DNA from: a virus
Strand: one strand, 5' to 3'
DNA length: 22,153 bases
IMG/VR virus record: IMGVR_UViG_3300009158_001511
Span: 1 to 22,153 of that record
The position numbers and the translations under genes were made by a program. The notes beneath the pieces were generated by a model, which saw only the letters and a list, made by a program, of their open reading frames with translations, had not been told where the DNA came from and made no database searches. Below are positions 1,791-7,546 of the stretch, one piece after another (the first letter of the stretch is position 1; the number at the start of each line of letters is the position of its first letter).

Positions 1791-2480
1791 ATGAATATAG
1801 CCGTAATTTTACTAAACCTAAACAGAAACCATTTGGCAAAACGCGTTGTTGACCAAAATTTTAAAAATGCGGGACACAATGCGGATTGTTTTTTGGTTGA
1901 CAATGGCAGCGACGAAGTGCCGTATGACATTTACAATTGGACAAATTGCAATGTTTCAACAAAGAAACGGGGTATTGCCGCAGGTGTTAACGCCGGTTTA
2001 AATATGACACGCGCATACGACGGCGTATGTATATTAGCAAATGACATTCTTTTACCTGATAATTGGTTGTCAAATTGGGTTATGTTTTCAGAACGTGTGT
2101 CAAAAACGGGCATTATTGGCATACATTGTGTTGAAGATTTGCCACCATTGGTTGACGGAATTCATAAAACACACGTGCCATTTGGCGATAATTTTATAAC
2201 AAGGGAATTGATTGACACTATTGGCGGTTACAATACAGAATACGACCCGTATGGAATGCAAGACCGTGATTATGCAGAACGCGCAATAATTGCAGGATTT
2301 ACAAATTATTACATACCTGATTTACGTTCTGAACATATTGGACACGACGTTGGAAATGGTACAGAATACCGACAAATGAAGGACGAAAGTTTACAACGCG
2401 CACAGGCAGTTTGGGAAAAATACCAACCAATTTACCATACAGAAAAAAAACTTTATGCGGATTTTAGCAATAACAAGTAA
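1791..2480 (+). CDS. Family 2-type (GT-A) glycosyltransferase
   Basis: The 229-residue product has the GT-A layout: an N-terminal strand AVILLNLNRN, the nucleotide-binding VDNGS (residues 36-40), KRGIAAGVNAGL (59-70), an NDI metal-binding triad at 84-86 in place of DxD, and an acidic catalytic segment GMQDRDYAERA (155-165). The following EHIGHD (181-186) fits the metal/His region that closes family 2 enzymes. It probably transfers a sugar from a nucleotide-sugar to an unknown acceptor in the cytoplasm. The family is usually 230-300 residues, so it is compact but complete. Its 3' end overlaps the next glycosyltransferase gene by 26 bases. Confidence 0.88.
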   Translation: MNIAVILLNLNRNHLAKRVVDQNFKNAGHNADCFLVDNGSDEVPYDIYNWTNCNVSTKKRGIAAGVNAGLNMTRAYDGVCILANDILLPDNWLSNWVMFSERVSKTGIIGIHCVEDLPPLVDGIHKTHVPFGDNFITRELIDTIGGYNTEYDPYGMQDRDYAERAIIAGFTNYYIPDLRSEHIGHDVGNGTEYRQMKDESLQRAQAVWEKYQPIYHTEKKLYADFSNNK

Positions 2481-3462
2481 AACAAGCGGGGTCGCTTACC
2501 ATAGAATCATTATGCCAATAGTCAATATGCAAAAAGATTATTGTTTAATGACCGATACATTAAGCGAAGAAACATTTGAAGGCAATTACGATATTGTTGT
2601 TATGAATAGAATGCTTGCAAACATAACACCCGAACAAATGGACGCCTGGCGCACAAAGTTTGGTTTTAAATTAGTTGTTGACAACGACGATTATTGGTAT
2701 TTAGACCCTTCGCACATATTACACGAACGTTACGTTTTAAATAATGTTAGTCAGCAAATTATTGATTGGCTTCGAATTGCAGACCTTTGCACAGTTACGC
2801 ACGAACGATTAGCTGAAGAAGTAAAGCCATACAATACCAATATTGAAATTGTGCCAAACGCTATTCCATACGGCGAAGAACAGTTTAAGGATTTTAAAAA
2901 GGATTCAGATCTTATTCGTTTATTTTGGTCAGGTTCGGGAACGCACGGCAAAGACTTGGAAATATTACGTAACCCAATGAAGCGTATTAATTTTCCTGTA
3001 CGTACAGTTATTGCCGGATTCAACGAAGATGAAAAGCCAATTTGGGACGGAATGATTTGCGCATTTACAAACGGATTGAAACTAAACCCAACGATTTACA
3101 ATTTTAATCAGGTTACCGAATATATGGCAGCCTATGCGGATTCAGATATTTCATTAATACCATTAATTGATTCAAAGTTTAATTCAATGAAGTCTAATTT
3201 GAAGGTACTTGAAACCGCAGCAAAGAAAAACCCTGCCATTGTCAGTAACGTACACCCGTACAAAGGATTTTATCCCGCCTGTCACGTCAATAGCCAAAAA
3301 GATTGGTACTATTGGATAAAACTATTAACCAAAGACCCTGACGCCCGTAAAAGCTACGGAAACGCTTTATACGAATATTGTAATAAGAACTTCAATTTAC
3401 ACGAAGTAAATAAACACCGATTCGCTATTTATAAAAAACTAATAGGCAATGCCGGTAATTAA
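2455..3462 (+). CDS. GT-B fold glycosyltransferase (family 4-like)
   Basis: The 335-residue protein starts with MRILAITSKTSGVAYHRI, a GT-B N-terminal strand followed by a Gly/Tyr/His loop. DNDDYWYL (residues 76-83) and IVPNAIPY (132-139, the VxNGV-like hinge of family 4 enzymes) follow. The C-terminal donor-binding domain has RLFWSGSGTHGKDLEIL and the segment FNSMKSNLKVLETAA (242-256), where Glu253 matches the conserved Glu of the EX7E motif. A retaining transferase using a nucleotide sugar is likely; the acceptor is unknown. It pairs with the upstream GT-A enzyme, suggesting two successive sugar additions. The start lies inside the upstream gene, with no better alternative. Confidence 0.85.
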   Translation: MRILAITSKTSGVAYHRIIMPIVNMQKDYCLMTDTLSEETFEGNYDIVVMNRMLANITPEQMDAWRTKFGFKLVVDNDDYWYLDPSHILHERYVLNNVSQQIIDWLRIADLCTVTHERLAEEVKPYNTNIEIVPNAIPYGEEQFKDFKKDSDLIRLFWSGSGTHGKDLEILRNPMKRINFPVRTVIAGFNEDEKPIWDGMICAFTNGLKLNPTIYNFNQVTEYMAAYADSDISLIPLIDSKFNSMKSNLKVLETAAKKNPAIVSNVHPYKGFYPACHVNSQKDWYYWIKLLTKDPDARKSYGNALYEYCNKNFNLHEVNKHRFAIYKKLIGNAGN

Positions 3463-4195
3463 ATGTTCAAACGGGAAATACAGAATTGGGTCAGGCGCTT
3501 GCATATATGACACCGAAGAAAAGGCAATAAAAGTTTGGCAGGCAATATTAGCTTCAGGCGCTTACGCTGCGGATTTAAACAAAGTTAGTTTTGATTTTGA
3601 CGATACTTTAACGACTGAAAAAGGTTTTAAAAAAGCAAAAGAATTAATTGCAGAAGGTAAAACAGTTTACATAGTTACACGAAGACAACAAAGCGCAAGT
3701 GAAGAAGTTTACAAAGTTGCTGACGAATTAGGAATACCAAAAAGCAGGGTTAAATTTACAAATGGTTCTTATAAATGGGAAACCATTAAACACTACGGCA
3801 TTGGTACACACTACGACAACAATTCACGTGAAATAGAATTGATTAATTCTAAAACGACCGCAAAGGGTGTAAAATTTGCGTTTCAGGATTCATATACAGA
3901 TTATCCCGAAGCAGCGACAAACAACGCTAAAAAAGCTTTAAAATACGCAGAAACGAATGGTTGGGGTGAATGTGGCACACCTGTTGGAAAAGCAAGAGCA
4001 AACCAATTAGCAAACAAAGAACCAATTTCACGCGATACAATTGCAAGAATGGCGTCATTTAAAAGACACCAACAGAATAAAAACGTACCTTACGAACAAG
4101 GTTGCGGCGGTTTAATGTGGGACGCTTGGGGTGGCGACGAAGGTGTTGAATGGGCGATTCGTAAGCTTAAACAAATAGATGAAGAAACACACTAA
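3449..4195 (+). CDS. Composite phage protein with HAD-type phosphatase core
   Basis: Three parts are visible in 248 residues. Residues 1-42 (C6-NGKYRIGSGACIY) form a short module that I associate with Bacteroidota phage head proteins. Residues 45-165 look like a HAD hydrolase: FDFDDT (48-53, nucleophile DxDxT Asp49/Asp51), Thr77 in VYIVTRR, Lys109 as candidate motif III and Asp123 in HYDNN as motif IV. Residues 176-242 (GTPVGKARANQLANKEPIS, MASFKRHQQN, WDAWGGDEGVEWA) match a module often found in phage prohead protease or portal-associated proteins. It may be a polynucleotide or nucleotide phosphatase with a packaging role. It overlaps both neighbours, and precedes the HNH-terminase genes. 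Confidence 0.7.
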   Translation: MPVIKCSNGKYRIGSGACIYDTEEKAIKVWQAILASGAYAADLNKVSFDFDDTLTTEKGFKKAKELIAEGKTVYIVTRRQQSASEEVYKVADELGIPKSRVKFTNGSYKWETIKHYGIGTHYDNNSREIELINSKTTAKGVKFAFQDSYTDYPEAATNNAKKALKYAETNGWGECGTPVGKARANQLANKEPISRDTIARMASFKRHQQNKNVPYEQGCGGLMWDAWGGDEGVEWAIRKLKQIDEETH

Positions 4196-4436
4196 AATTT
4201 ATCTTGATTACTTTGGCTATGGTTTAGAAGACTTTATTCCCTGCGAAGTATGCGGACAAAGAGCAGTTGACATACACCACATAGACGCACGGGGAATGGG
4301 CGGTACAAAGAAACAAGACACAATTGAGAATTTACAGGCATTATGCAGGTATTGTCACGTTGTATTAGGGGACACAAAGAATCATTATCAATATTTAAAG
4401 GAAATTCACAATAAGTTATTAAATGGCAAAGGTTAA
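4179..4436 (+). CDS. HNH endonuclease, packaging-associated
   Basis: This 85-residue protein carries a zinc-type HNH fold: Cys22-x2-Cys25, His33-His34 (HHID), Asn51 in ENLQALC and Cys56-x2-Cys59-His60. HNH proteins of this size placed just upstream of terminase genes are known to stimulate genome cleavage by the terminase in HK97-like phages. Here it lies two genes before the small terminase-like protein, so a role in making genome ends (cos or headful) is a fair inference. A free homing endonuclease is a less likely alternative because the gene is embedded in the operon, overlapping the previous gene by 17 bases. Confidence 0.85.
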   Translation: MKKHTKIYLDYFGYGLEDFIPCEVCGQRAVDIHHIDARGMGGTKKQDTIENLQALCRYCHVVLGDTKNHYQYLKEIHNKLLNGKG

Positions 4437-6451: not shown

Positions 6452-6601
6452 ATGAACAAATTAAAAACACCACAGGAAAAACATTTAGAATTATTAGCTG
6501 CACGTCAAAAGCAATACGCAAAAGATTCTTTGGGTATGGGTTGGTTCTTCGCTATTATTGCAGGCGCTTTATTGTTGACCGCTTTAATTGAAAACCTTTA
6601 A
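6452..6601 (+). CDS. Small single-span membrane protein, 49 residues
   Basis: ATG 6452 to TAA 6599-6601 encodes 49 residues: a charged amphipathic N-terminus (TPQEKHLELLAARQKQYAK) and one strongly hydrophobic segment MGWFFAIIAGALLLTALI (about residues 29-46) ending in ENL. A type with the N-terminus in the cytoplasm and a C-terminal transmembrane anchor is likely. It lies 15 bases after the previous small gene and one base before the methyltransferase start. The function is unknown; the size and topology would also suit a small phage membrane effector. Confidence 0.55.
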   Translation: MNKLKTPQEKHLELLAARQKQYAKDSLGMGWFFAIIAGALLLTALIENL

Positions 6602-6602
6602 T

Positions 6603-7376
6603 ATGAATCACGCAAGTTTATTTAGCGGGATTGGGGGTTTTGATCTGGCTGCACATTGGGCGGGTTGGAATAACGTATTTCATTGCGAATGGAATCCATT
6701 TGGTCAACAAGTTTTAAATTATCATTTTCCTAATTCAATTTCTTATAATGACATCACAAAAACCGATTTTACAGTTCACGCAAACAAAATTGACATTCTC
6801 ACAGGTGGATTCCCCTGCCAACCATATTCAATTGCAGGACTTAGAAAAGGAAAAGACGACCAAAGACATTTATTTCCTGAAATGCTTAGAGCAATTAAAG
6901 AAATCAGACCGCGTTGGGTTATTGGCGAAAATGTTCGTGGGCTTGTTAGTTGGAACGAAGGGTTGGTATTCGACGAAGTGTGCGCTGACCTGGAAAATGA
7001 AGGCTATGAGGTACAACCGTTTATTATTCCTGCTTCAAGCGTCAACGCGCCACATAGAAGGGAAAGAATATGGTTTATTGCCTACGCCAACTTGCAACGA
7101 ATCGACAAATATGACTTTGCCGCCGTCACAAATAAAACGGAACGACAGTATTGTGAAAAGGATTTTATTGAAAAACCCGGAAGCTGGGAAGAATTTCCGA
7201 TTGAATCCGAAGTACGTGGAAGAAATGATGGGCTTCCCGAAGGATTGGACGCTAAAACCTTTTCTTATTGGGAAAAAGAATCAATTAAAGCATACGGAAA
7301 CGCAATAGTTCCGCAAGTTGCTTTTGAAATATTCAAAACAATTAATACATTTGAAGAACAATTAAAAAACCTATAA
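6603..7376 (+). CDS. C5-cytosine DNA methyltransferase
   Basis: The start is taken at ATG 6603 (MNHASLFSGIGGF); an in-frame TTG at 6588 would overlap the preceding gene. The 257 residues hold the ordered motifs of m5C methyltransferases: I LFSGIGGFDLA (6-16), IV GGFPCQPYS with catalytic Cys72, VI ENVRG (109-113), VIII PHRRERIWF (150-158) and X GNAIVPQ (232-238). The region between motif VIII and X, where target recognition lies, is only about 70 residues, so the enzyme is compact. It probably methylates phage DNA to evade host restriction; no cognate nuclease is nearby. The target sequence cannot be read. Much of the gene is also open in the +1 frame (see 6748-7308). Confidence 0.93.
   Translation: MNHASLFSGIGGFDLAAHWAGWNNVFHCEWNPFGQQVLNYHFPNSISYNDITKTDFTVHANKIDILTGGFPCQPYSIAGLRKGKDDQRHLFPEMLRAIKEIRPRWVIGENVRGLVSWNEGLVFDEVCADLENEGYEVQPFIIPASSVNAPHRRERIWFIAYANLQRIDKYDFAAVTNKTERQYCEKDFIEKPGSWEEFPIESEVRGRNDGLPEGLDAKTFSYWEKESIKAYGNAIVPQVAFEIFKTINTFEEQLKNL
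6748..7308 (+). CDS. Possible overprinted gene inside the methyltransferase (+1 frame)
   Basis: The +1 frame within the methyltransferase stays open for 186 codons from an ATG at 6748 to a TAG at 7308; an internal ATG at 6931 (codon 62) would give 125 residues. The product has recognisable pieces: CALTWK (residues 78-83), RLLFLL (91-96), LLPTPT (110-115), and LNPKYVEEMMGFPKDWT (152-168) ending with LKHTETQ. I recall these as conserved in stand-alone proteins annotated as DNA methylase in Bacteroidota and phages. At the same time the main frame reads through motifs VI to X over the same bases, so both readings look meaningful. Other same-strand out-of-frame openings in this window are at most about 86 codons. 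Whether it is translated is unknown. Confidence 0.45.
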   Translation: MTSQKPILQFTQTKLTFSQVDSPANHIQLQDLEKEKTTKDIYFLKCLEQLKKSDRVGLLAKMFVGLLVGTKGWYSTKCALTWKMKAMRYNRLLFLLQASTRHIEGKEYGLLPTPTCNESTNMTLPPSQIKRNDSIVKRILLKNPEAGKNFRLNPKYVEEMMGFPKDWTLKPFLIGKKNQLKHTETQ

Positions 7377-7378
7377 TT

Positions 7379-7546
7379 ATGCCTTACTCAACTTGCTGCG
7401 GCGCACACACCAATTTTACTGAAATGGACATTTGTCCGGATTGCTTAGAACATTGCGACTTTGAAGACGACGACGAAGAAGAAGTTGCACAGGACGAACA
7501 AACAGAAAACCGAATTGACCAAACTAAAATTGACCAAAATGCCTAA
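7379..7546 (+). CDS. Small Cys-rich acidic protein, 55 residues
   Basis: ATG 7379 to TAA 7544-7546 encodes 55 residues. The N-terminal half, STCCGAHTNFTEMDICPDCLEHC, has Cys6-Cys7 and Cys19-x2-Cys22 with nearby His10/His25 and Cys26, a pattern suited to one zinc ion. The C-terminal half is very acidic (DFEDDDEEE) and ends in a Gln/Asp-rich tail. It follows the methyltransferase by two bases. Small zinc ribbons of this form (CCGA...CPDC) are common in phages of Bacteroidota, but the role is not known to me. It overlaps the next start by eight bases. Confidence 0.6.
   Translation: MPYSTCCGAHTNFTEMDICPDCLEHCDFEDDDEEEVAQDEQTENRIDQTKIDQNA

Follow-up and report, generated by a model that had tools for sequence, protein, structure and literature searches.

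Does a phage gene for a C5-cytosine methyltransferase encode, inside its own coding sequence and in another frame, a second protein that belongs to the same enzyme? This question was raised by a viral contig of 22,153 bases (an IMG/VR record), which was analyzed over its whole length and is referred to here as the window; it carries terminase, portal, and other structural genes. The methyltransferase frame, termed alpha (frame 0, predicted large subunit), spans 6603–7376 on the plus strand and encodes 257 amino acids. Its likely start is ATG 6603, which is directly abutted by the TAA stop (6600–6602) of a preceding small open reading frame (ORF); the ORF list starts the same frame at TTG 6588. 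The original prediction, made from the sequence alone, had reported a +1 frame open for 186 codons at 6748–7308 within the methyltransferase, and this was reproduced. The +1 ORF, termed beta (186 amino acids, predicted small subunit), runs on the plus strand from ATG to TAG and lies wholly inside alpha. All of the +1 motifs quoted for it were present, namely CALTWK (6979–6996), RLLFLL (7018–7035), LLPTPT, LNPKYVEEMMGFPKDWT at 7201–7251, and the terminal LKHTETQ, and frame 0 over the same bases reads VCADLE and SEVRGRNDGLPEGLD. Motifs VI, VIII, and X were found in frame 0, as had been claimed, and motif IV is there too.

Around the gene, a small ORF lies immediately 3′ of the methyltransferase (7380–7544; MPYSTCCGAHTNFTEMDICPDC...), which is zinc-ribbon-like and has an acidic tail. 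Glycosyltransferase-like genes (1791–3462, of which 2455–3462 corresponds to phrog_7162, E=1e-60) and an HNH endonuclease ORF (4179–4436) are situated 5′ of the terminase genes, the latter just 5′ of them. No partner restriction enzyme for the methyltransferase was recognized within the window.

Split C5 methyltransferases have precedents. M.AquI (CYCGRG) is a two-polypeptide C5 methyltransferase, and M.EcoHK31I recognizes YGGCCR, as M.EaeI similarly does. The small subunit of M.EcoHK31I is reportedly encoded inside the large-subunit gene in another frame.

The +1 Frame Is Kept Open by Selection

Two checks had been proposed with the original prediction, one for stops or random sequence in homologues read in +1 and one for substitutions counted in both frames, and both were run. 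Viral-contig relatives of alpha or beta, picked by similarity to either, served as homologues, and stops were counted in 67 non-redundant alphas (nucleotide identity <90%). In the overlap, 29 stops were observed in the +1 frame of the 67 homologues versus 440 expected from synonymous codon resampling, a 15-fold depletion that favors the ORF; because the sequences share ancestry, resampling P values are optimistic. Most of the 29 were the terminal stop of beta, placed a few codons ahead of its position in the window. The +2 frame of the same homologues held 1179 stops versus 1274 expected, and no +1 depletion occurred in 30 canonical Bacteroidota C5 methyltransferases (504 versus 472 expected). 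The +1 frame of the window gene itself stayed open in 6 of 20,000 synonymous resamples drawn with its own codon usage and in 0 of 20,000 drawn with phage codon usage, and the +1 frames of 15 other window genes had no open stretch longer than 89 codons.

For the substitution count, single substitutions in 33 near-independent pairs were classed by their effect in both frames, as pairwise, uncorrected counts. The +1 NN/NS was 0.18 (95% interval, 0.15–0.22) in the overlap, 1.44 (0.93–2.89) upstream of beta, and 2.81 when frame +2 was scored. Thus, +1-changing substitutions are suppressed, alpha-altering changes being about 5 times rarer when beta is also altered. This present-day purifying selection led us to reject the suggestion that the +1 frame is a relic of an older frame choice.

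Conservation of alpha combined with codon bias could nevertheless cast a shadow of apparent motifs into +1, and some of the +1 similarity is indeed such a shadow. Synonymously resampled alphas still scored against a beta profile, near relatives reaching about 100 bits and the window gene a mean of 121 ± 13 bits; because resampled alphas score too, a BLAST or HMM match in +1 by itself was not counted as proof. The real window gene, however, scored 255 bits against a profile built without it (z 10.6), and in 17 dual-coded phage records the real sequence beat every synonymous resample (z 3.6–10.4), whereas 0 of 30 canonical enzymes rose above their resamples (z −2.1 to 1.6). The weaker values of GordTnk2 (z 1.6) and Gladiator (z 3.0) arise because beta continues past alpha in them and only a part was scored. 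A beta match of CRP-822 was dropped, its motif IX being in frame 0 and its score within the resamples (z 2.7). A shadow is further contradicted by the stop depletion, which the canonical enzymes likewise do not show, by the suppression of +1-changing substitutions where frame 0 is near neutral, and by a stand-alone beta gene in one bacterial genome, both described below. We therefore hold it to be exceedingly improbable; the observation is real and not chance.

Beta Carries a Predicted Motif IX That Alpha Lacks

Alpha matched PF00145 (E=3e-49), with the best match confined to profile positions 1–169 of 324, and phrog_363 (E=9e-72). On the plus strand, motif I FSGIGG (6621–6638) and motif IV PCQP, which holds the catalytic Cys (6813–6824), are invariant or nearly so in the alpha alignment, and motif VI ENV (6927–6935) is invariant. 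Also invariant are R153 and R155 of motif VIII RRER (7056–7067) and G232, N233, and A234 of motif X GNAIVP (7296–7313), the latter motif extending beyond the beta stop. AlphaFold modeled alpha residues 1–167 and 233–257 mostly with confidence, including a motif X helix at residues 237–256, and residues 168–232 with a pLDDT of about 40; the span between motifs VIII and X is thus without a folded region in the model. By Foldseek, alpha matched M.HaeIII and M.HhaI over 170–181 columns of 324–327, roughly half their length. These two enzymes share the catalytic fold of alpha, but they are monomeric and hold the target-recognition domain and motif IX in the same frame.

Since an initial motif IX pattern failed on many canonical enzymes, an alignment was used instead. 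No motif IX pattern was present in frame 0 of the 67 alphas, and the best position-specific scoring matrix (PSSM) score in frame 0 of the window alpha was −7.3. The one high frame-0 score (11.4), in homologue L127, came from a string that arose by chance; the motif IX of L127 is clearly present in its beta. The window gene therefore does not carry motifs I–X in a single chain, alpha being without IX. When beta was aligned to the canonical enzymes by hhalign, the sole match was that of beta residues 149–169 to motif IX, a modest one (probability 11.6%; E 0.0026 for a single comparison). The putative motif IX, RLNPKYVEEMMGFPKDWT, lies at 7198–7251 on the plus strand, its residues M161, G162, P164, W167, and T168 are invariant, and its PSSM score was 8.3 versus 2.7 at the 99th percentile of resamples.

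Upstream of it, LLPTPT (7075–7092) belongs to the variable region, where the LPTP element is repeated; a single-chain actinophage enzyme has this element in its frame 0. The block CALTWK...RLLFLL (6979–7035) overprints alpha between motifs VI and VIII; in it C78, W82, K83, and R91 are conserved in at least 90% of sequences and L96 is invariant, and the segments covering it had NN/NS of 0.30 and 0.17. All 66 aligned betas matched phrog_1008 (E=3e-22 for the window), and no family was matched in Pfam and NCBIfam profile searches. A comparison of beta with the PDB was also negative, the N-terminal block WYSTKCALTWK...RLLFLL having no recognized relative in Pfam or PDB. AlphaFold modeled beta alone poorly (pLDDT 54.8), with the CALTWK...RLLFLL block as a strand pair (strands 78–86 and 92–100) in this low-confidence model, and a PDB fold search with it returned nothing. 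The proposed small-domain role of beta thus rests on sequence and evolution.

An N-terminal block without relatives would also suit a beta that is translated and selected for a job unrelated to the enzyme, such as that of a regulator or an anti-restriction protein. However, motif IX sits at its canonical place in beta and exactly this motif is missing from alpha; 311 of 316 ORFs found with the beta profile overlap an alpha in its +1 frame, and relatives exist in which the parts form a single chain or in which IX is joined to X. An unrelated job is accordingly very unlikely.

Constraint Alternates between the Two Frames

Along the overlap, constraint fell chiefly on alpha at alpha codons 49–80, and the first 30 codons of beta were weakly constrained (NN/NS 0.53 [0.26–1.28]). 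At codons 81–165 the +1 frame was constrained (NN/NS 0.17–0.30). At codons 166–205 (7098–7217, plus strand), the putative target-recognition span read in +1, frame 0 was near neutral and beta was constrained: the NS rate was 0.234 versus 0.21–0.23 for neutral proxies (changes silent in alpha, outside the overlap), and the rate of alpha-silent, beta-altering (SN) changes was 0.033. Both frames were constrained at codons 206–235. Past motif VIII, constraint shifts from alpha to beta, and at motif X it is back on alpha. Because frame 0 is near neutral between motifs VIII and IX and the alpha model is unfolded there, the target-recognition region is more likely to lie in beta than in alpha.

The start of beta is likewise preserved. 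Its ATG (6748–6750, plus strand) is made up of bases 2–3 of the alpha Asn49 codon and base 1 of Asp50. Where this column holds Asn, it is encoded in 48 of 49 cases by AAT, the codon that gives ATG, compared with 51.7% AAT elsewhere in alpha (P=4e-13, with relatedness not corrected), and a +1 stop preceded the ATG in 67 of 67 genes, at a median of 10 codons. These data show that the beta ATG is under selection. Candidate Shine-Dalgarno-like stretches precede an internal start in some other phages, namely Leyra (GGGAGG), Lily (AGAGGTG), and phiGT1 (AGAGGTG).

With IX in +1 and the rest in frame 0, the parts I–VIII, variable region plus IX, and X run colinearly with a canonical enzyme. This order could also be read by a programmed +1 frameshift after motif VIII, by which alpha I–VIII would be fused to the variable region and motif IX of beta and no separate beta would be made. 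Such a fused product, however, would be without motif X unless the frame shifted back, and beta is constrained in +1 even ahead of the supposed shift point (alpha codons 81–165). As the beta ATG and its upstream stop are conserved and beta exists as its own gene in one genome, we judge a frameshift highly improbable. An in silico frame-shifted mosaic for folding was dropped, as no single four-base word yields the three shifts needed.

Relatives Hold the Same Parts in Other Arrangements

Gene 63 of Mycobacterium phage Nimbo has the same parts as the window gene, but in one frame: motifs I–VIII, LPTP repeats, NPRLAAAFPEWMMGWPAGWVT, and then motif X, the motif IX segment (FPEWMMGWPAGW / PRLAAAFPEWMMGWPAGWVT) being in the same chain as X. 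In Gladiator and GordTnk2, alpha ends after motif VIII, and a +1 ORF that begins inside alpha carries IX and X. Actinophage loci included 25 single-chain cases and 25 in which IX and X are read in +1, counts that mirror the queries and not prevalence. Judged from their sequences, these relatives confirm a colinear, two-frame reading of the parts of the canonical enzyme. A near relative of the single-chain actinophage enzyme (L389:2895-3980) has IX and X in the +2 frame of a 99-amino-acid alpha fragment, which may reflect a sequencing error, decay, or a recent frame change. At two further loci (L216 and L224), alpha and beta switch frame at one place, which fits a single indel, either an assembly error or a recent mutation.

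In Nimbo (L365 / L353), the +1 frame over motifs VI–VIII still resembles the N-terminal block of beta (z 5.3), and this +1 sequence recurs in other single-chain actinophage genes; it may be a relic of a split ancestor or may still be translated. This +1 signal is unexplained by our model and, together with the weak constraint on the first 30 codons of beta, counts against it.

The overlap was present in phages of Bacteroides, Porphyromonas, Lactobacillus, Paenibacillus, and Mycobacterium and also in those of Salmonella, Escherichia, Xanthomonas, Stenotrophomonas, Sulfitobacter, and Bordetella. It was absent in Javan78 and Vibrio 1.133, whose enzymes keep motif IX in frame 0. The overlap was rare in Bacteroidota genomes (4 of 396), and C5 methyltransferases were common (66 of 148). 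A plasmid search with a beta of a gamma-proteobacterial phage, aimed at M.EcoHK31I-like enzymes, retrieved unassigned DNA cytosine methyltransferases only.

The original prediction had linked the +1 motifs to stand-alone proteins annotated as DNA methylases. Nearly all such proteins turned out to be the overlapping frame, and one genuine stand-alone beta was found. In Bacteroidetes bacterium 43-16 (MKTB01000005.1, locus L214), a second beta gene at 3496–4062 overlaps no alpha and lies 12 bases past the stop of a neighboring alpha, which is itself overlapped by a beta. What the two betas have in common by BLAST is chiefly the W...LxWKL...RF block and the block around motif IX. The extra gene is the clearest sign, as read from its sequence, that beta would be a protein in its own right, and one alpha may here serve two specificities. 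Upstream of this methyltransferase, an ORF on the minus strand (L214:818-2119) encodes pentapeptide-like repeats and a TIR-like C terminus (VFISYSFKDS...) and is possibly a defense gene.

Discussion

The evidence makes it very probable that the window gene specifies, in overlapping frames, both polypeptides of a split C5-cytosine DNA methyltransferase, with beta as its small, target-reading domain. Frame 0 would yield alpha, the catalytic large domain with motifs I–VIII and the motif X helix, and translation from the internal +1 ATG would yield beta, which combines a conserved block at its N terminus with the variable target-recognition region and motif IX. Together, alpha and beta would most likely form a single enzyme by which the phage methylates its own DNA; beta would read the target sequence and thereby set specificity, and the modification would protect the phage. 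There is thus strong support for the earlier suggestion that an overprinted second protein cooperates with the methyltransferase, and the suggestion can be sharpened: the motif IX absent from alpha, and probably the target-recognition region as well, appear to come from beta.

Among known enzymes, the nearest in layout is M.EcoHK31I, whose large subunit holds motifs I–VIII and X and whose small subunit holds IX (PMC3404938). Judged by its motif layout, the window gene appears to share this division into subunits and would thus belong to a known type, which in this analysis turned up across phages of several bacterial phyla, mostly with a single frame annotated. It differs from M.EcoHK31I in being a phage gene and in apparently placing the target-recognition region in beta; in M.EcoHK31I that domain is predicted in the large subunit, an assignment that is itself a prediction (PMC3404938). 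The small subunit of M.AquI holds both IX and X (PMC3404938), whereas in the window motif X belongs to alpha, within which beta is entirely nested. Closer to the M.AquI split, I–VIII followed by IX–X, are Gladiator (gp87/gp86) and GordTnk2, in which the downstream ORF begins in +1 within the upstream one.

A wider reading, which we consider evenly balanced between right and wrong, is that a large, old, and mainly phage-borne family encodes the target-recognition subunit within the catalytic gene, in frame +1. Such layouts would interconvert with single-chain enzymes through frame shifts after motif VIII and between IX and X, with constraint alternating between frames, and beta could escape as a separate gene, possibly giving two specificities, as in L214.

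Wrong annotation of the alternate frame had been offered as another explanation. It is half right, in a different sense: databases do often list one frame alone, although both are real. Only the beta frame is annotated in DosHalletts (gene 71) and Porphyromonas phage 018a; the records BK068099.1 (8776–9390) and PP978828.1 (46690–47235) annotate the beta frame alone, as a hypothetical protein, and lack the frame of the methyltransferase. The PHROG families phrog_1008 (beta) and phrog_363 (alpha) are both named DNA methyltransferase, and their entries are silent on their being two frames of one gene. Lily LILY_63 is annotated as "g62 internal gene", and two DNA-cytosine methyltransferases are recorded at the locus in Leyra. 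In the passages found of a comparison of 48 P. larvae phages, gp62 and gp63 are both given as DNA-cytosine methyltransferase and their overlap is undiscussed (PMC6070908). Within the literature searched, which left subscription papers largely outside, the overlap was nowhere described as a phage-wide arrangement.

Many phage records thus give one subunit of two, and enzymes cloned from such annotation would be half enzymes. To our knowledge, long same-strand overlapping genes have seldom been proven in prokaryotes, and there is debate over how they originate. In this case, known enzyme motifs would reveal what the hidden frame does, and because related phages still hold single-chain, staggered, and fully nested forms, the origin of the overlap may be traceable stepwise.
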